Part shown: piece after piece, positions 4,711 through 53,803 of the stretch
Numbering within the stretch: position 1 is the stretch's first letter
Layout of the letters: each line of letters begins with the position of its first letter
Assembly: GCA_019637225.1 (NCBI GenBank)
Contig: JAHBWC010000022.1
Span: 1 to 64,000 of the forward strand
DNA length: 64,000 nucleotides
Source: Labilithrix sp.
GTDB taxonomy: Bacteria; Myxococcota_A; Polyangia; Polyangiales; Polyangiaceae
Direction of reading: 5' to 3'
The notes under the pieces: model-generated
Seen by the model: only the letters and a program-made list of their open reading frames with translations
The model's database searches: none
What the model was told of the DNA's origin: nothing
Translations under genes and position numbers: made by a program

Positions 4711-5601
4711 ATGGCGCCCGAGCCGGAACCACGGAGCTTCTGGCGCGACGTCTGGGCGTTTCGCGGCGCCGTCACCGCGACGGTGCTGCCGCGCGTGCTG
4801 GCCTTCGGCGCCATGTCCGCGCTGGTCATGTTCGGACGCCATCAACTGGGCGGCTTCGCCCTCGAGATCGGCCCCGTGGAGCTGGTCGGCGGCGCCCTCG
4901 TGCTGCTCATCGTGCTCCGAACGAACGCCGGCTACGACCGGTGGTGGGAGGGCCGAAAGCTGTGGGGCGGCATCGTCAACCAGTCGCGCAACCTCGCGAT
5001 CGCCGCGCTCACCTACGGCGCGAGCGCCGAGCCCGAGTGGCGCGATCGCTGCGCTCGCTGGACGGCCGCCTTCGCCCACACCGCGCGACGGAGCCTGCGC
5101 GGCGAACGTGACTTGCCGGAGCTCACCGCGCTCCTCGGCGCCGAGGCGACCGCCCGGATCGCGCGCGCCGAGCACATGCCGAGCGCGGTCGCCGTCGAGA
5201 TCGCCGGGCTCCTTCGCGTCGCCGTCGAGCGAGGCTGGCTCTCCCCCTTCGCGCTGATCCAGTGCGAGCGGGAGCGCGCAGGGTTGATCGACCACGTCGG
5301 AGCCTGCGAGCGCATCCTCTTGACGCCTCTGCCGCAGGTCTACGTCATCAAGGTTCGTCGCTTCGTCGCGATCTACCTCGTGATGTTGCCGTTCTCACTC
5401 GTCGACCGGGTCGGCTGGGCCTCGCCTCTCCTCACGATGCTCGTCGCCTACCCGATCCTCGGGCTCGATCAGATCGCCGTCGAGCTCGAGAACCCGTTCT
5501 CGACGAGGAGGCTCGGCCACCTCCCGCTCGACGCGATCTGCGAGAAGATCGAAAAGAACGTCCTCGCGTTGCGCGACGAGGCGACGGAGGGCGGTCGGTG
5601 A
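4711..5601 (+). CDS. Bestrophin-family (UPF0187) ion channel protein
   Basis: A 296-residue membrane protein of bacterial bestrophin length. Family hallmarks are RTNAGYDRWWEGRK after the second helix and GLDQIAVELENPF near the C-terminus. Hydrophobic helices lie at about 20-40, 52-70 and a pair near 215-250. Bacterial homologues form pentameric cation or anion channels in the inner membrane. The ATG at 4711 is chosen because it gives the expected cytoplasmic N-terminus (FWRDVWAFRGAV); the reading frame upstream overlaps the opposite gene. It converges with the DUF4129-like gene, with one base between the stops. Confidence 0.92.
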   Translation: MAPEPEPRSFWRDVWAFRGAVTATVLPRVLAFGAMSALVMFGRHQLGGFALEIGPVELVGGALVLLIVLRTNAGYDRWWEGRKLWGGIVNQSRNLAIAALTYGASAEPEWRDRCARWTAAFAHTARRSLRGERDLPELTALLGAEATARIARAEHMPSAVAVEIAGLLRVAVERGWLSPFALIQCERERAGLIDHVGACERILLTPLPQVYVIKVRRFVAIYLVMLPFSLVDRVGWASPLLTMLVAYPILGLDQIAVELENPFSTRRLGHLPLDAICEKIEKNVLALRDEATEGGR

Positions 5602-5602
5602 T

Positions 5603-7222
5603 TCAGGACTCGACTTCGGGCGCTCGTCCCCACGCCGCCGCGAGCTTCTTCTTGAAGCCCACGCGCCGCTCGACGGTCTGTACGAAGGCCGTGATCGCCT
5701 CGCGCATCGTCTGCTCTTCGCCTGCGCCGAGGCCGCGGCCGGCGTAGTCGATCTTCTCGACGATGGCGGCGGCGTCTCTCAAGCCGACCGCATCGCAGTG
5801 GAGCGTCGCCTGTAGCTCGCTCTCGGCGCGCCGCGCGAAATCGCTCGGCGTCTCGCCGGCACTCGGCTCGATGTCGACCACGGCGAGGACGGCGAGCGCT
5901 CGGCGCCACAGGTTCATCACGCGTGCGGTCGGCGCCACGGGCCAGAGCGGGCGCTCGAGGTGCCGGAGGAGGAACGCTCGCCGGAAGGGCGGGAAGACGA
6001 CGAGCATCAGCACGAGGAGGGCCGCGACGGCCGCGAGCAGCCACATGAAGAGCTTCATCCCGAGGCCGAGCGCTTCGCCCGCGGCGTCTCCGGCGTGACT
6101 CGCATCGGGCTTGCCCAGCGGCTCGTCCGGTGGAGCGCCGTTCGATGAGCCGCCACCGCCCGACGACGCGCCTTGCCCGCCAGAGCCGCCACCCGACGCG
6201 CCTTGCCCGCTCGAGCCTCCTCCCGACGACGCGCCTTGCCCGCCCGAGCCCCCGCTCGATCCTCCACCCGACGACGCGCCTTGCCCGCCAGAGCCTCCAC
6301 CCGACGACGCACCCTGCCCGCCCGACGACGCACCCTGCCCGCCCGACGACGCACCCTGCCCGCCCGACGACGCGCCCTGGCCGCTCGATCCGCCGCCCGA
6401 CGACGACCCGCCCTGGCCACCCGAGCCACCGCCCGACGACGCGCCCTGGCCGCTCGAGCCTCCGCTCGACGATCCGCCGCTGCCGTCGTGCTCGCCGTGA
6501 GGCTCGCGTGTCCGGAAGAGGTACGGCGAGATGAGCGCCGTCGCGCCGAGCACGGCGAGCGTGAAGACGAACAGCACGGCGAAGCTGCCGCGTCCGGGAC
6601 GCGCGACCGCGACGGCGTCGTCCTGCACCGCAAGGCCCCGTGGACGCGCGACCTCCTGCCAGACGGTGAGGCCGAGCGAGTGCCGGGTCGCCAGGAAGAC
6701 GAGCATCAAGAAGACGCCGCCCGTCAGGCAGATCATCGTGAAGCCGTCCCACACCGCGTGCTTCGAGCCGCCGTGAAACGTCTCGACCGCGCCGTGGCGG
6801 TTCATCCAGACGATCGCGCCGCCGATGCAGAACGACAGCGGGTACCACGCGGCGACGACGTCGAGGCGGCTCGCGATGCCGAGGTAGCCGCCGAGCGCCG
6901 AGAACACCGCGATGACGAGGAAGAGCGCGATCGCTCCGAGCGCGACGCCGCTCAACGTGGCGCCGATGAAGAGCGCGAAGAAGAGCACGACGACCGGCAT
7001 GAGCCGGAGGCCGGACAGGCCGAGCAGGTTCCCACCGATGTGACCGGCGAGCGTCGCCGCGAAGACGCCGGCGAGGACGCCGAGGTCGCCGGGCGAGACG
7101 CCGAAGCCACCGCTGGTGAGCACGAGGCTCATCACGAGGCACATCACGCCCCACACGGAGAAGACTCCGTACGAGACGAGGACCGGCCACGATCGCCGGA
7201 GCGTCGCGCGGAAGCCGCTCAC
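5603..7222 (-). CDS. Multi-pass membrane protein with Gly/Ser/Gln linker and DUF4129-like tail
   Basis: A 539-residue protein. About seven transmembrane helices fill residues 10-290, followed by a low-complexity linker of roughly 110 residues built from GQGASSG-type repeats. A further helix (LFMWLLAAVAALLVLMLVVF) and a C-terminal soluble domain resembling DUF4129 follow (PSDFARRAESELQ...DYAGRGLGAGEEQ). The GTG start at 7222 is supported by a near-perfect ribosome site and by a GTGA overlap with the stop of the upstream DUF58 gene. MoxR-DUF58-DUF4129 operons are often linked to envelope or protease/chaperone functions; the exact role is unknown. Confidence 0.8.
   Translation of the reverse strand: MSGFRATLRRSWPVLVSYGVFSVWGVMCLVMSLVLTSGGFGVSPGDLGVLAGVFAATLAGHIGGNLLGLSGLRLMPVVVLFFALFIGATLSGVALGAIALFLVIAVFSALGGYLGIASRLDVVAAWYPLSFCIGGAIVWMNRHGAVETFHGGSKHAVWDGFTMICLTGGVFLMLVFLATRHSLGLTVWQEVARPRGLAVQDDAVAVARPGRGSFAVLFVFTLAVLGATALISPYLFRTREPHGEHDGSGGSSSGGSSGQGASSGGGSGGQGGSSSGGGSSGQGASSGGQGASSGGQGASSGGQGASSGGGSGGQGASSGGGSSGGSGGQGASSGGGSSGQGASGGGSGGQGASSGGGGSSNGAPPDEPLGKPDASHAGDAAGEALGLGMKLFMWLLAAVAALLVLMLVVFPPFRRAFLLRHLERPLWPVAPTARVMNLWRRALAVLAVVDIEPSAGETPSDFARRAESELQATLHCDAVGLRDAAAIVEKIDYAGRGLGAGEEQTMREAITAFVQTVERRVGFKKKLAAAWGRAPEVES
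6301..6372 (-). repeat. 21-bp tandem repeats coding GQGASSG
   Basis: Near-identical 21-base units (core GACGCACCCTGCCCGCCCGAC on the plus strand) occur in tandem here. The wider stretch 6160-6480 is made of diverged copies. They encode the Gly/Ser/Gln linker of the membrane protein and may vary in copy number by slippage without shifting the frame. Confidence 0.8.
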
Positions 7223-44883: not shown

Positions 44884-45804
44884 TCAGGCCTGCGCGGACA
44901 GACGCGCGTACTCGCGCTTCGCGCCTTCGACGTTGAACATGAAGGCGATCCAGAGGAACGGCGCGAGGAACATGTTCGCGTACGGGATCACCTGGAGGAT
45001 CGCGGCCGCGATCCCGAGCCCTCCGGACGCGCGCTTCGACGAGCCGAAGCCGGCGAGCGCGCGGTTCAGCGCAGCGCAGAGGCCCGCCGAGACGATGAAG
45101 TACCAGTAGAGGTTGTAAAACGGGATGAAGAGGTACCCGACGGCCGCGCCCGGGCTCACGCGCGTGCCGTCGCCGGTCATGCGCATCGAGTCGGGGAGCA
45201 TTTCCCACGACTTGTAGAGCCACACGAGCGCCGTCACGATGTACGTGAGCAAGAGCGGGAACGCGAACATCGAGAAGACGCCGCCGATGGTCGTGCCGAT
45301 GTCGTCGCCCTCCGCGACCGCGCTGATGACCGCGCCGATCAAGAAGAGGACGATGCTCCCGACGAAGCTGCCGAAGACGATCCACCGGAGCATCGGCGCG
45401 CCGTTCGTGATCGCGCCGAGCGAGTAGCCGTGGCTCGGCTGCTGGTAGCCGAAGTGCGCGGGCGGCGCGTAGCTCGGGCTCGGGCCGTACGCCCCGTACG
45501 CCGACGGCGGCTGACCGTAGCCTCCCGGCGGCGGACCGTACGACGGCGCCGGGCCGTAGGCGGAGGCCTGACCGCCGCCGTGCGGCGGACCGTAGGCGGA
45601 GGCTTGACCGGCGCCCGGCGCCTGGCCGTAGCCGGAGGCCTGACCGGCGCCCGGCGCCGGGCCGTAGGCGGAGCCCTGCGCGCCGTGCGCCGGACCGTGG
45701 GCGAACGGGCCGCGGGCGGCTTGACTGGCCGGCGGACCGTACGCCGATCCGCTGGGGCCGAAGGGAGCAGGCGGGGAGCCGTAGGAACCGTTCATGTGAC
45801 CCAT
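44884..45804 (-). CDS. Membrane protein with Gly/Pro/Tyr/Ala-rich repeat N-terminus
   Basis: A 306-residue protein. The first 120 residues are low-complexity repeats (GQASAYGP, GAGQASGY) without Cys. Four transmembrane helices follow (about 140-295), with the segment YLFIPFYNLYWYF typical of DUF4328-like membrane proteins. The repeats probably form a disordered cytoplasmic domain. Two Mets near the start (residues 1 and 4) leave the exact start open. It is divergent from the FKBP gene. Confidence 0.75.
   Translation of the reverse strand: MGHMNGSYGSPPAPFGPSGSAYGPPASQAARGPFAHGPAHGAQGSAYGPAPGAGQASGYGQAPGAGQASAYGPPHGGGQASAYGPAPSYGPPPGGYGQPPSAYGAYGPSPSYAPPAHFGYQQPSHGYSLGAITNGAPMLRWIVFGSFVGSIVLFLIGAVISAVAEGDDIGTTIGGVFSMFAFPLLLTYIVTALVWLYKSWEMLPDSMRMTGDGTRVSPGAAVGYLFIPFYNLYWYFIVSAGLCAALNRALAGFGSSKRASGGLGIAAAILQVIPYANMFLAPFLWIAFMFNVEGAKREYARLSAQA
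45540..45740 (-). repeat. Coding repeats of GQAS.YGP type
   Basis: Diverged units of about 30-40 bases with cores GGCGCCCGGCGCC and CCGTAGGCGGAG encode the low-complexity N-terminal part of the membrane protein. They are not identical enough for clean slippage. Confidence 0.6.
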
Positions 45805-48651: not shown

Positions 48652-51105
48652 ATGGCGGCGACGTCGTCTCCCGCTCCCTACCAGGTGCTTCGGATCGTCC
48701 AGGAGGGCCCTCGGGTCTCGATCCGCCGCGCCTCGAGCCCGCGCGACGGCCGAAGGGTCCTGCTCAAGATCGAGCACAGCGCCGATCCCCGCGCAGCCGA
48801 CGCGCTGCGCCGCGAGCTCGAGATCGGCGGCGCCCTCGACCCCGCTATCGCGCTCCGGCCGCTGGAGATGAGCACGTTCGGCGATCGCCCGGCGCTCGTG
48901 CTCGAGGACTTCGGCGGGCTGCCGCTGAGGCAGCTCCTGGGCGCGCCGATGGAGGTCGGACTCGCGCTGCGGATCGCCGCGAGGCTCGTTTCGTGCCTCG
49001 AGAGCGTCCATCGCAAGGGCCTCGTGCATCGGAACCTCCGCCCCGAGAACGTCTACTTCGATACGCGCACCGGTGAGGTGAAGCTCACGGGCTTCGGGAG
49101 CGCGACGCCCGAGGACGGACACGTCCCCGACGGCACGGCGCTCGAAGGAACGCCGCCGTACGTGGCCCCCGAGCAGCGCGGGCGCGTCGAAAGGCCGCTC
49201 GACCGGCGCGCGGACCTCTACTCGGTGGGCGTGGTCCTCGTCGAGATGCTCACCGGAGTCCGTCCGGACGAGGACGAGGCCGACGTGCTCGGGTGGGCAG
49301 AGCGCCGCCTCGCCGAGCGGATGCCGCCGGCCGTGGAACCACCGGCGCTCGCCGTCTCGGACGTCGTGTCGAAGCTCCTCCGCGAGCTGCCTGACGAGCG
49401 CTACTCGACGGCGGCCGATCTCCACGACGACCTCGCCCGCTGCCTCGACGTGCCGGTCGCGCCGCCGCCCGACGAGACGGCCCCGCACGCCCTCGGCGCC
49501 GCCGGCGTAGAGGTGGATCGAGGCCATCCGGCAGTGCGGCTCGACCTGCTCGAGCTCACCCGCGTGCTCTCGAACGAGACCGTCCGCTGGAGGCTCCTCC
49601 GCGCGCTGACGCGCCTCCTCACGGAGCAGGCCGGCGTGCGGAGGGCGGTCTTCCTCTCGGTCTCCGGCGGCCGCTGGGCGCTCGAGTGCTCGGCGGGCCC
49701 CGTGGGCGGCGTTCCCACGTCGATCGTCGACCAGGTGATCTGCACGCGTGAGCGCGTGCTGCTCGACGACGCGAGCGTCCCCAACCCCCATTCGGCCGAT
49801 CCTTACATCGCGGCGAGGCGCCCGAGGTCGCTCGTCTGCCTCCCGATCCTCCGGCACACGGACCTGCTCGGCGCGCTCTACCTCGAGGACGACCTCGTTC
49901 CGGCAGCGTTCACCGACGATCGGCTGGCGCTGGTCGAGCTCCTCGCCGAGCTCGCCGCGATCTCGCTCGAGAACGCGCGCCTCCACGCCGAGATGCTGCG
50001 CGAGAGCGCGGACCGCCAGCAGGCCGAAGCGACGCTGCGCGCGATCCTCGACAACATGGTCGATGCCGTCCTCGTGTGCGATCGCTCGGGTTGGATCACG
50101 TTCACCAACCCCGCGGCGCTGCGGGTGTACGGGCTCCGGAACGTCGCTTCCGGAGGAAAGCTGCGGGTGGACGAGTTCGCCCGGCAGATGCACCCCGTCC
50201 ACGCCAACGGAGAGGCGTTCCGCGCCGACGAGCTCCCGCTCTTGCGCGCGCTCGCAGGCGAGATCCTGAGCTCGGTCGACATGACCGTCCGGCACCCGGA
50301 GACCGGCCGCGCGACGCACCTGCGCCTGAGCGCCGCGCCGCTCCAGGACACGCGCGGCGCCCTCGCCGGCGCCATCTCGCTCGGGGTGAACGTTACCGAG
50401 GCGATCGAGCTCGATCGTCTCAAGGAGCAGTTCATCCGCATCGTCGCGCACGAGCTGAAGACGCCGATCGCCATCGTGAAGGGGTACGCGGATCTCCTTC
50501 GCCACGTCGACGCTCCGTCGGGACAACAGCGCCGGCTCGTCGACGCGCTGATCCGCGGCACCGATCGGATCGACCGGCTCGTGACCGATCTCCTGATCCT
50601 GTGGCAGCTCCAGACAGGGCGTCTCGTGCCGGCGCCCGAGACGAACGTCGACCTCGTCGAGCTCGCAGAGAGGGTCGCCGGACGCTTCGAGCGCGAGACC
50701 AACCGGCGCGTGGAGGTGGTGAGCTCGCCGGCGGTGATCACCGCGGACCGGCAGCTGATCGAGCGAGCGATCGGCAGTCTCGTCGACAACGCGCTCCGCT
50801 ATTCGCCCGGCAGCGGCGACGTGCGGATCCGCGTGGGCGCGATGAACGGGGCCGCGAGCGTCGAGATCGAAGATCACGGGATCGGCATCCCCATGGAAAA
50901 GCAGGCGGACATCTTCGAGCCGTTCTATCGCGCCCACACGGACACCCCTTACGACTCCGGCGGGCTCGGCCTCGGGCTCTACGTGGCACGGGCGATCGCG
51001 ACGCTGCACGGAGGCGACGTCGTGGCGGAGAGCAGGGAGGGAGAAGGGAGCACCTTCCGCATCACCCTGAGGCGGCCGGTCGAGAGCGCGGAGCGTACCG
51101 CCTGA
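48652..51105 (+). CDS. Pseudokinase-GAF-PAS-histidine kinase hybrid
   Basis: An 817-residue cytoplasmic sensor. Residues about 10-275 form a Ser/Thr kinase fold: Lys39 is present and GTPPYVAPEQ is typical. However, the catalytic loop reads VHRNLRPEN (Asn128 replaces Asp) and DFG is GFG (147-149), so phosphotransfer is unlikely. A GAF domain (about 300-440), a PAS domain (about 455-570) and an intact HisKA/HATPase pair follow (AHELKTPIAIVKG with His600; GIGIPMEKQ; GLGLGLYVA). The pseudokinase probably senses a ligand or partner. Its 3' end overlaps the opposite response regulator gene by 44 bases. Confidence 0.92.
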   Translation: MAATSSPAPYQVLRIVQEGPRVSIRRASSPRDGRRVLLKIEHSADPRAADALRRELEIGGALDPAIALRPLEMSTFGDRPALVLEDFGGLPLRQLLGAPMEVGLALRIAARLVSCLESVHRKGLVHRNLRPENVYFDTRTGEVKLTGFGSATPEDGHVPDGTALEGTPPYVAPEQRGRVERPLDRRADLYSVGVVLVEMLTGVRPDEDEADVLGWAERRLAERMPPAVEPPALAVSDVVSKLLRELPDERYSTAADLHDDLARCLDVPVAPPPDETAPHALGAAGVEVDRGHPAVRLDLLELTRVLSNETVRWRLLRALTRLLTEQAGVRRAVFLSVSGGRWALECSAGPVGGVPTSIVDQVICTRERVLLDDASVPNPHSADPYIAARRPRSLVCLPILRHTDLLGALYLEDDLVPAAFTDDRLALVELLAELAAISLENARLHAEMLRESADRQQAEATLRAILDNMVDAVLVCDRSGWITFTNPAALRVYGLRNVASGGKLRVDEFARQMHPVHANGEAFRADELPLLRALAGEILSSVDMTVRHPETGRATHLRLSAAPLQDTRGALAGAISLGVNVTEAIELDRLKEQFIRIVAHELKTPIAIVKGYADLLRHVDAPSGQQRRLVDALIRGTDRIDRLVTDLLILWQLQTGRLVPAPETNVDLVELAERVAGRFERETNRRVEVVSSPAVITADRQLIERAIGSLVDNALRYSPGSGDVRIRVGAMNGAASVEIEDHGIGIPMEKQADIFEPFYRAHTDTPYDSGGLGLGLYVARAIATLHGGDVVAESREGEGSTFRITLRRPVESAERTA

Positions 51106-51448
51106 CCACCTCGATCAGCTCTTCGGCGGAGAACGGCTTCGGCAGGAAGCCGCGCCCACCGAGCTGCTGGCAGCGTCGCGATGCGTGCTCCCCTGCGGTC
51201 ATCACGATGAACGGGGCGCGCGGCCCGTCCGCGTAGCGGGCATGGTACTGGGCGACGAACTCGACGCCGGACATGACCGGCATCCTCAGGTCGAGCAGGA
51301 TCAGATCGGGCATCTGCTCCTCTACTCGCGACAGCGCCTCGCGCCCGTTCGTCGCCGTGGTCACGACGTAGCCCTCCTGCTCGAGGACGATGGCGAGGAG
51401 GCTCCGAAGATCCGGGTCGTCCTCCACCGCCAGGATCGTCGGCGTCAT
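51062..51448 (-). CDS. Single-domain response regulator
   Basis: A 128-residue receiver-only protein. The acidic pair is EDD (9-11), the phospho-acceptor Asp is in LILLDLRMP, and Lys is in LPKPFSAEE. It lacks an output domain, so it may act in a phosphorelay or by protein contact. It is convergent with the hybrid kinase, overlapping its end by 44 bases, so it is a candidate partner. The ATG overlaps the stop of the dehydrogenase gene as ATGA. Confidence 0.9.
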   Translation of the reverse strand: MTPTILAVEDDPDLRSLLAIVLEQEGYVVTTATNGREALSRVEEQMPDLILLDLRMPVMSGVEFVAQYHARYADGPRAPFIVMTAGEHASRRCQQLGGRGFLPKPFSAEELIEVVRRYAPRSRPAASG

Positions 51449-52647
51449 CCGCTCACCCGAGGCCCCGGCCTGAGGATCACCTTCGTGTACCCGGCGGCGC
51501 GCTGCTCGAACTTCGCGTAGGCGTCCTGAGCCTCTTCGAGCGGCAAGCGATGGCTCACCAGGAAGTCCGGCTTGGCCTTGCCGAGGACGATGAGGTCGCG
51601 GAGCGTCGGCGCGAAGCGGACGACCGGCGTCTGGCCGGTCCCGAGCGACAGCCCCTTCTCCCACAGCTTGCCGAACGAGAGCCGGAACTCGCCTCGCTTT
51701 GCGTGAGGGTTGATCCCGCCCGGGTCGTTCGGGACGTAGAGCCCGACGGATCCGATTCGACCCGTCGGATTGACGAGGCGGATCAGATCCTCCAGCACCC
51801 GGCCGGGGTTCTCCGCCATCGTCGGATCGCTCCAGTCGATCGCCTGGTAGCCGACCGCTTCGATCCCGCACATGACGCCCATCATCTTCTCTTCGCCGGG
51901 GCGGAGCTTGCCGGCGGTCCTCCGCCGGCGCTGCGCGACGATCTGCTCGACGGGATCGCCCTGTCGAAAGTCGATCGGACACGCGCCGATCTCGGCGGCC
52001 TTCGCCAGTCGATCGTCGACGCCGTCGACGATGTACACCTCGCCCGCGTCCTTGAGCAGAGCGCTGTACGCCGCGAGGAGCCCGACAGGACCGGCGCCGA
52101 AGACGGCGACCGTGCTGCCTCCGTCGACCCCCGCGAGCTCGTTCGCGTACCAGCCTGTGGGGAAGACGTCGGCGAGGAGGACGAACGCGTCTTCCCACTC
52201 GTCTCCGGGCTTGCCCGGAACCTTCAGGCAGTTGGTCTCGGCGAACGGGACGCGCAGGTATTCGGCCTGCGCGCCTCGGTACGGGCCCATGCCCACGTAG
52301 CCGTAGGCACCTCCCGCCGAGTCGGCGGTGACCGCGAGACAGGCCGACGTGAACCCGCGCGCGCAGTTGAAGCAAACGCCGCACGAGACGTTGAAAGGAA
52401 CGACGACGCGATCGCCGCGCCGCACGGACGTCACGTCGGCACCGACCTCCTCGACGACGCCGAGCGGCTCGTGGCCGAGGACGAGGCCGGCAGGCGCGAC
52501 CGTTCGCCCGGCGAACATGTGGAGATCGCTCCCGCAGATCGCCGCTGAGGTGACCCGGATGATCGCGTCCGTCGGCGCTTCGATCTCCGGATCCGGCACG
52601 CGCTCGACCGCGACCTCGCGTGTGCCTTTCAACACCACAGCTCTCAC
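51445..52647 (-). CDS. Zinc-dependent alcohol/formaldehyde dehydrogenase
   Basis: A 400-residue medium-chain dehydrogenase, closest in length and pattern to glutathione-independent formaldehyde dehydrogenase. The catalytic zinc ligands are Cys (AAICGSDLH) and His/Glu (LGHEPLGVVEEVG). The structural zinc lobe is SCGVCFNCARGFTSAC, and the cofactor loop is FGAGPVGLL. It oxidises an alcohol or aldehyde with NAD. The gene precedes the response regulator with an overlap, an unusual pairing that suggests co-expression. Confidence 0.93.
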   Translation of the reverse strand: MRAVVLKGTREVAVERVPDPEIEAPTDAIIRVTSAAICGSDLHMFAGRTVAPAGLVLGHEPLGVVEEVGADVTSVRRGDRVVVPFNVSCGVCFNCARGFTSACLAVTADSAGGAYGYVGMGPYRGAQAEYLRVPFAETNCLKVPGKPGDEWEDAFVLLADVFPTGWYANELAGVDGGSTVAVFGAGPVGLLAAYSALLKDAGEVYIVDGVDDRLAKAAEIGACPIDFRQGDPVEQIVAQRRRRTAGKLRPGEEKMMGVMCGIEAVGYQAIDWSDPTMAENPGRVLEDLIRLVNPTGRIGSVGLYVPNDPGGINPHAKRGEFRLSFGKLWEKGLSLGTGQTPVVRFAPTLRDLIVLGKAKPDFLVSHRLPLEEAQDAYAKFEQRAAGYTKVILRPGPRVSG

Positions 52648-52933: not shown

Positions 52934-53803
52934 ATGATCATCGTCTACGGGACTCGTCTCTACGGTCATGCGGACGCCATCGAAGGCGTTGGACACGTGT
53001 CCTGTCGCTTCGTGCACATCATGTTCGTGCCGCTCATCCCGGTCGAGACCGTGTTCATGCTGGACGAGGAGCGCGGCATCAAGCTGCCCTTCAGCTTCAA
53101 GGCGGCCGCGTGTGGATGGCTTCGCGGCGGCACACTCGTCTGGGGCATCGGCTCGATCATCGGAGCGGTCGTCGAATTCGTCGAGGGCGACTACCTGTTC
53201 GGTGCCCTGTCGCTCGGTAGTGCCGTCCTCGCCTTCGTGAGCTTCTTCGTGGTCGGGCTGCTCTTCGGAAGGTGCTCTCCCGCGCGGCGCGCCGAGCTGA
53301 TGTCGGCGCTCGGCATGGATCCGGGCTCGGACGGCGCCGGCCACTACGCGCCGGCTTCCGCCCCGCATGGCTTCGGCCCGACGCCCTACATGCCGCAGCC
53401 CGCGGGGCCGCCTCCCCCGGCGGGCGGGTTCGGGCAACCGCCGTACGCGACGGCGCCGTCGTCGTACGGCGCTCCACACCACGGAGCGCCCCCTATGCCG
53501 CAAGCGTTCGGGCCTCCGCAGGGCTACGGCGGTCCTCTGCCGCCCGGAGCTCCTCCGCAAGGCCATGGCGGGCCTCCGCAGGGCTACGCTCCACCGCAGG
53601 GATACGGTCCGCCGCAAGGCTACGGTCCTCCGCAGGGCTACGGTCCGCCGCAAGGCTACGGTCCGCCGCAAGGCTACGGTCCGCCGCAAGGTCAGGGCGC
53701 TCCGGCGCAGGGCTACGGTCCTCCGCAGGGCCACGGCGGTCCCCCTTCACCGCAAGCGCCAGGCAACTACGGCGCGCCACCTCCCGAAGGGTGGAGACGC
53801 TAG
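52934..53803 (+). CDS. Membrane protein with PPQGYG tandem repeats
   Basis: A 289-residue protein. The N-terminal 60 residues are beta-rich with a Cys ([19 protein letters not shown]), a pattern of small zinc-ribbon-like membrane heads. Two transmembrane helices follow (about 67-110). The C-terminal 170 residues are low-complexity, with at least six PPQGYG units. The repeats are Pro/Gly/Gln/Tyr-rich and likely disordered. No family with a known role is recognised. Confidence 0.75.
53571..53694 (+). repeat. 18-bp tandem repeats coding PPQGYG
   Basis: Units such as CCGCCGCAAGGCTACGGT recur with 1-2 base changes across this stretch. They keep the frame, so copy number changes would lengthen or shorten the tail without breaking the protein. 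Confidence 0.8.

Follow-up and report, generated by a model that had tools for sequence, protein, structure and literature searches.

A Ser/Thr kinase domain that lacks both catalytic aspartates forms the N-terminal part of a sensor histidine kinase in Labilithrix sp., and we think it probable that this pseudokinase, selectively maintained and derived from an HstK-type dual kinase, is a non-catalytic binding module that tunes the histidine kinase, which would in turn phosphorylate a receiver encoded next to it. The gene lies on contig JAHBWC010000022.1, whose first 64,000 nt, the whole stretch that was analysed, are called the window here. It is an open reading frame from ATG to TGA for 817 residues (48652–51105, forward strand, as are all parts of the protein below).

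Pfam assigns to the protein, in this order, Pkinase (residues 20–255, E 9.7e-21), GAF (315–439; 49594–49968), PAS (461–584, matched by PAS_8 and PAS_4; 50032–50403), HisKA (591–654; 50422–50613) and HATPase_c (699–808; 50746–51075). The H, N, G1, F and G2 boxes of a sensor histidine kinase are all present by Pfam and motif check, with HELKTP at 600, VDNALRYS at 711, DHGIGIP at 741 and GGLGLGLY at 770, the phospho-acceptor being H600 (50449–50451); with all these motifs found, the histidine kinase part is intact, as a sequence-only reading of this DNA had held. Pfam detected no AAA or TPR domain between the kinase and GAF domains, which are joined there by a linker of ~32 residues, and among the matches listed from NCBIfam (25 of 90) every one to the protein fell below its cut-off.

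The pseudokinase domain, delimited by the Pfam match and a structure model, comprises residues 9–268 (48676–49455). By sequence and alignment, H126-R127-N128 (49027–49035) replaces HRD, so that the catalytic Asp is gone, and G147-F148-G149 (49090–49098) replaces DFG, with the metal-binding Asp gone; moreover, the catalytic-loop Lys of HRDLKPEN is Arg130 (Gln in an orthologue 72% identical) and the glycine-rich loop is degenerate. Kept are the VAIK-type lysine K39 (48766–48768) and E55, the beta3 Lys/alphaC Glu pair, as well as N133, A172-P173-E174 of the APE motif (49165–49173) and the motif D184-R-R-A-D-L-Y-S; K39, E55 and N133 are invariant across three compact proteins, this one and the two orthologues described below. 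Structure prediction, which the sequence-only reading had called for, gave for residues 1–283 (from an alignment of five sequences) a kinase fold with pLDDT 78.9 and pTM 0.80, in which the activation loop (151–167) stayed below a pLDDT of 50. The model's top PDB matches are PknB, the first being 3ori_A (Z 25.9, rmsd 2.7 over 241 residues, 28% identity), and M. tuberculosis PknB is also the best PDB match by sequence. Hence what that reading had seen in this domain holds up: the HRN and GFG substitutions, identical in both orthologues, the retained Lys39 and APE-like motif, and a catalytic loss with the fold kept, given the absence of both Asp, the Pkinase E-value and the Z score against PknB. 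A model of the full-length protein (pLDDT 41.5) was too low in confidence for judging domain docking. From the loss of both Asp we infer that the domain no longer transfers phosphate to Ser/Thr; nucleotide binding without catalysis may still be possible, since K39, E55 and N133 are retained.

Full-length matches were found in only two other genomes (L021/L032, 90% identical, and L022/L033, 72%; L032 and L033 hereafter) among 96 relatives, 108 genomes of the family and 183 of the order, sets that overlap and include the own genome; a scan of the genome contigs returned the same two orthologues. All three compact genes are free of stops and frameshifts and all three carry HRN and GFG. The sequence-only reading had allowed for orthologues with an active HRD and DFG and a recent mutation in this one copy; with identical HRN and GFG in 3/3, we reject recent inactivation or a sequencing error, and coincidence is very unlikely as well. 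The 90% identical gene is on a 4.5 kb contig (JAHBWH010000323.1) of a genome assigned to another family, and the copy in the same-genus genome is just 72% identical, below the 90% of L032; either a misplaced contig or horizontal transfer would explain the L032 case.

Purifying selection acts on the kinase domain, as shown by substitution rates among the three related compact sequences. For residues 9–270, NG86 omega was 0.38 (window–L032), 0.33 (window–L033) and 0.30 (L032–L033), and the YN00 values, where obtained, were lower (0.20, 0.12 and 0.11). Constraint was strongest from the hinge to GFG (residues 81–149; 48892–49098), with omega of 0.11, 0.10 and 0.08 for the same three pairs and 63 of 69 residues invariant in the three orthologues: none of the protein's 749 windows of that length scores higher, those starting at 79 and 80 tie, and within the kinase domain 0 of 20,000 permutations reached this conservation. 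For comparison, 17 of 19 residues are invariant in the H box and 14 of 26 in segment 150–175, which includes the activation loop; constraint was weaker in the C-lobe with the activation loop (150–268; omega 0.59, 0.44 and 0.45 in the order above). In the compact protein, the dead cleft and its surroundings are thus better preserved than any other part. In 26 pairs of HstK-type kinases with HRD and DFG intact and 65–82% identity, which share sequences and hence are not independent, stretch 81–149 was no more conserved than the domain as a whole (mean ratio 0.99); the corresponding values for window–L033 are 0.91 in 81–149 and 0.74 for the whole kinase domain. In contrast to the domain, the linker (residues 269–300; 49456–49551) evolves fast: it has 5 of 32 residues invariant, and omega over 271–300 (24–30 codons) was 1.1 for window–L033, 0.96 for L032–L033 and 4.7 for window–L032, this last value depending on a single silent change.

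We also considered whether constraint at the DNA level explains the conservation of residues 81–149. In 81–149, dS was 0.18 (window–L032), 0.52 (window–L033) and 0.40 (L032–L033), compared with 0.12–0.23, 0.37–0.56 and 0.46–0.79 in the other domain regions, linker excluded; it is thus normal in the two pairs with the window and low in the third, and for the two L033 pairs the fourfold-site difference (0.26 and 0.24) was the lowest of the regions compared. On these values we mostly reject a DNA-level constraint, and some such effect or rate variation may contribute.

The sequence-only reading had described a pseudokinase fused to GAF-PAS-histidine kinase. Pfam confirms that domain order; a fresh fusion of an unrelated kinase is rejected, for the two halves lead to one and the same full-length relative and the neighbouring genes correspond. 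In HstK-type dual kinases, found in cyanobacteria, myxobacteria and others, the order is Ser/Thr kinase-AAA-TPR-GAF-PAS-histidine kinase. After the orthologues, the nearest relatives of the GAF-PAS-histidine kinase half are two proteins of genome G004, followed by full-length proteins of 1827, 1906 and 1872 residues encoded by open frames. The first of these, L057 (1827 residues; Pkinase, AAA_16, GAF, PAS, HisKA and HATPase_c), is the nearest full-length relative of both halves (kinase 46%, 45.6% to one decimal; GAF-PAS-histidine kinase 52%) and keeps HRD, but already has GFG; L044 (1872 residues) has HKD and DFG. Outside the orthologues, L057 is also the best match of the kinase domain, with 201 bits in a search of the fetched loci, mostly HstK-type, compared with at most 85 bits, over a different query span, for kinases of the own genome, in which (83% complete) no kinase-AAA match was found at 1e-70. 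Where L057 has ~1000 residues with AAA and TPR, the window protein has the ~32-residue linker, and it carries HRN besides GFG.

The trees point the same way in part. In the GAF-PAS-histidine kinase tree the compact proteins group with L053, which is the same gene as L057, with support 0.997. In the kinase tree without outgroup, the compact clade joins L057 (UFBoot 100) within a clade of 18 (UFBoot 100); none of the other 14 members of that clade has lost the DFG Asp, and 12 still have both Asp. Once Ser/Thr-kinase outgroups are added, the compact proteins move next to the outgroup (UFBoot 93), probably by long-branch attraction, and a larger FastTree of kinases was unresolved at 0.55. The window protein therefore appears to be an internally shortened HstK-type kinase that lost AAA and TPR; most likely, DFG changed to GFG first, and HRD then changed to HRN and AAA and TPR were lost on the same branch. 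The two G004 proteins (L048, 278–2869, and L049, 7005–9647, both reverse strand), which look alike by eye, are TPR-GAF-PAS-histidine kinases whose TPR parts are 35–38% identical to that of L057; nothing in the 10–12 kb fetched around them matched the kinase or AAA region of L057.

Convergent to the histidine kinase gene, a stand-alone receiver-domain response regulator (51062–51448, reverse strand; Pfam Response_reg alone, stops checked) is its likely partner, as far as gene position tells. It is preceded by a gene of the zinc alcohol-dehydrogenase family (51445–52647, reverse strand), whose stop overlaps the regulator's start (ATGA); an assignment as formaldehyde dehydrogenase was rejected (292 bits against a cut-off of 637). 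A related receiver is convergent to the histidine kinase gene in 7 of the 10 related loci searched, at 48–95% identity (L032 95%, L033 78%, L049 63%, L048 61%, L058 54%, L057 53% and L044 48%); in L034 a receiver (43%) lies downstream in the same direction, and none was found near the gene in two HstK-type loci of the ten, L046 and L047. In seven of the eight convergent pairs, window counted, the 3' ends of the two genes overlap, L058 being the exception: by 44 nt in the window (51062–51105), L032 (2740–2783) and L033 (8399–8442), by 62 in L048 and L049 (one genome), by 37 in L057 and by 32 in L044. Mutual antisense or terminator effects of these overlaps are possible. A related dehydrogenase gene is present in 4 of the 10 loci (L032, L033, L049 and L057; 70–94% identical). 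With matching receiver and dehydrogenase neighbours, the window gene corresponds in position to the gene for full-length L057. The upstream context of the kinase gene is not conserved between the window and L033, where a short ORF (5326–5724, reverse strand), of PemK/MazF type by eye, lies directly upstream. Elsewhere in the window, tandem repeats of 18, 36 and 54 nt occur at 53569–53736 and 45526–45703, both arrays inside ORFs, on opposite strands, for proteins rich in Gly/Pro/Gln or Gly/Ala.

In the explanation that we consider probable, the pseudokinase would sit on the flexible ~32-residue linker in front of GAF-PAS, and its conserved face (hinge, alphaD, alphaE and dead catalytic loop) would dock a partner protein or hold a ligand, possibly a nucleotide bound without catalysis. 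Docking or ligand would shift the autokinase/phosphatase balance of the histidine kinase, which would autophosphorylate at H600 and pass the phosphate to the convergently encoded receiver. The binding role and the direction of regulation are what we infer here: a binding role is suggested because the conserved stretch covers hinge, alphaD, alphaE and catalytic loop, a flexible tether because the linker evolves freely, and a non-catalytic role because neither Asp nor the catalytic-loop Lys is left. The non-catalytic use of the domain proposed in the sequence-only reading gains support from the selection acting on it. The pathway can do without a kinase domain, as none is present in the two G004 proteins encoded at the equivalent position. 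A bolder and more tentative version is that the cleft binds a nucleotide or metabolite and that its occupancy directly gates the histidine kinase, the dead site having turned sensor.

It seems to us unlikely that the domain, its cleft empty, is no more than a scaffold on which the histidine kinase, or a separate active kinase acting in trans, dimerises or assembles. The fast-evolving linker suits tethering, and many matches to the kinase domain occur in the own genome, but the hinge and catalytic loop that line the cleft fall within the most conserved stretch, and K39 and E55, not needed for a surface-only role, are kept. Residual phosphotransfer has been claimed for the human pseudokinases CASK (GFG) and HER3 (HRN), each with a single substitution; the window protein has both losses, is bacterial and is joined to a histidine kinase. 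We give little credence to the idea that weak or metal-independent phosphotransfer persists here and regulates the histidine kinase. It would accord with the invariance of K39, E55 and N133, with L057 keeping HRD next to GFG and with the cleft region being the most conserved, but both Asp and the catalytic-loop Lys were lost together, the glycine loop is degenerate, and conservation and model confidence are both low in segment 150–175, which includes the activation loop. Least probable of all is a functionless, decaying remnant kept only through its fusion to a needed histidine kinase, for although the catalytic residues are gone, two G004 relatives do without the domain and omega reaches 0.59 in 150–268 for one pair, no window is more conserved than 81–149, with its omega of 0.08–0.11, all three genes are intact, and the adjacent linker shows, over few sites, what free drift looks like (omega ~1 or more).

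Dual kinases of cyanobacteria and other organisms have been surveyed earlier, as portions of two papers indicate (PMC2176072, PMC1262709). According to passages of a review (O'Boyle et al., 2025; PMC12599244), about 40% of the CP1 family of bacterial Ser/Thr kinases are pseudokinases, every one of them described as linked to the COG3899 ATPase; as in the window protein, a pseudokinase occurs there with GAF and PAS sensors. Judged by domain content, CP1 apparently matches the HstK type, and we take the AAA_16 ATPase of the full-length relatives to be the COG3899 part; the window protein, in which no AAA match was found, differs from the CP1 pseudokinases described in those passages by having no COG3899 link. 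Pseudokinases in the CP1 family are thus already in print, and the compact form without the COG3899 part would be a variant of them; among the open-licence papers listed we recognised none describing a pseudokinase joined directly to GAF-PAS-histidine kinase. The fungal hybrid histidine kinases Chk1, Mak2 and Mak3 have, in the parts of the report by Feng et al. (2022; PMC9069115) that describe them, the order S_TKc-AAA_16-GAF-histidine kinase of full-length HstK, and joint deletion of S_TKc and AAA_16 from Chk1 gave a phenotype like that of full deletion, so that N-terminal parts matter there. As those parts describe it, the Chk1 type is unlike the window protein in being eukaryotic, 2471 residues long and provided with its own receiver domain, and S_TKc was deleted together with AAA_16.

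Loss of a catalytic Asp recurs in the HstK-type family. When kinase-AAA proteins were surveyed across the phylum (235 genomes), 49 of 60 had both Asp and 11 lacked that of HRD or DFG, two of the 11 (L149, L175) showing an alignment gap at the DFG Asp. The 60 are all but one of 61 AAA matches, the other being too near a contig start to fetch; all have a kinase match, the selection was by AAA match whatever the histidine kinase end, and L170 may be another kinase type. On a poorly resolved pooled tree with one duplicate (L095 and L117 are the same gene), canonical and non-canonical states required 8 Fitch changes compared with a mean of 29.6 in 200 shuffles, so that losses cluster in lineages. 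Both Asp are kept in 39 of 62 aligned kinase domains (59 HstK-type or compact and three Ser/Thr kinases of the own genome, left from 73 hits after removal of redundant ones), a sample biased towards the top hits of two queries, one of which (L057, giving eight plasmid loci) is itself GFG. Among those eight plasmid-borne hits, seven lack the DFG Asp and the beta3 Lys and keep HRD, and the Leptolyngbya protein keeps both. The seven have TGFG (Caballeronia, two Microvirga, Mesorhizobium, Rhizobium etli and Cupriavidus) or TGFC (Bradyrhizobium, L114); they are L109–L111 and L113–L116, four annotated as 'AAA family ATPase', one as 'trifunctional serine/threonine-protein kinase/ATP-binding protein/sensor histidine kinase' and two without annotation, the first two being the names given to HstK-type plasmid records. 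These proteobacterial proteins perhaps form a broad pseudokinase class, of an origin likely independent of the window GFG, as the two stand apart in the kinase tree (L115 not included).

Altogether, our analyses indicate that the pseudokinase is real, common to all three orthologues known here and, judged from selection, functional. Because the strongest constraint falls on the dead active site, it argues that in at least some such proteins the kinase fold works by binding and not by phosphorylation, and at 817 residues the compact protein is of a practical size for testing such a role. If the gating reading is true, the protein would be a pseudokinase-gated histidine kinase in minimal form, released from the ATPase that accompanies every CP1 pseudokinase according to the review passages cited above (PMC12599244). 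At one conserved locus, with related receiver genes alongside, nature offers a deletion series of a full-length protein with a GFG kinase, one with the dead kinase only and one without kinase, and this evolutionary series would allow the gating reading to be tested.
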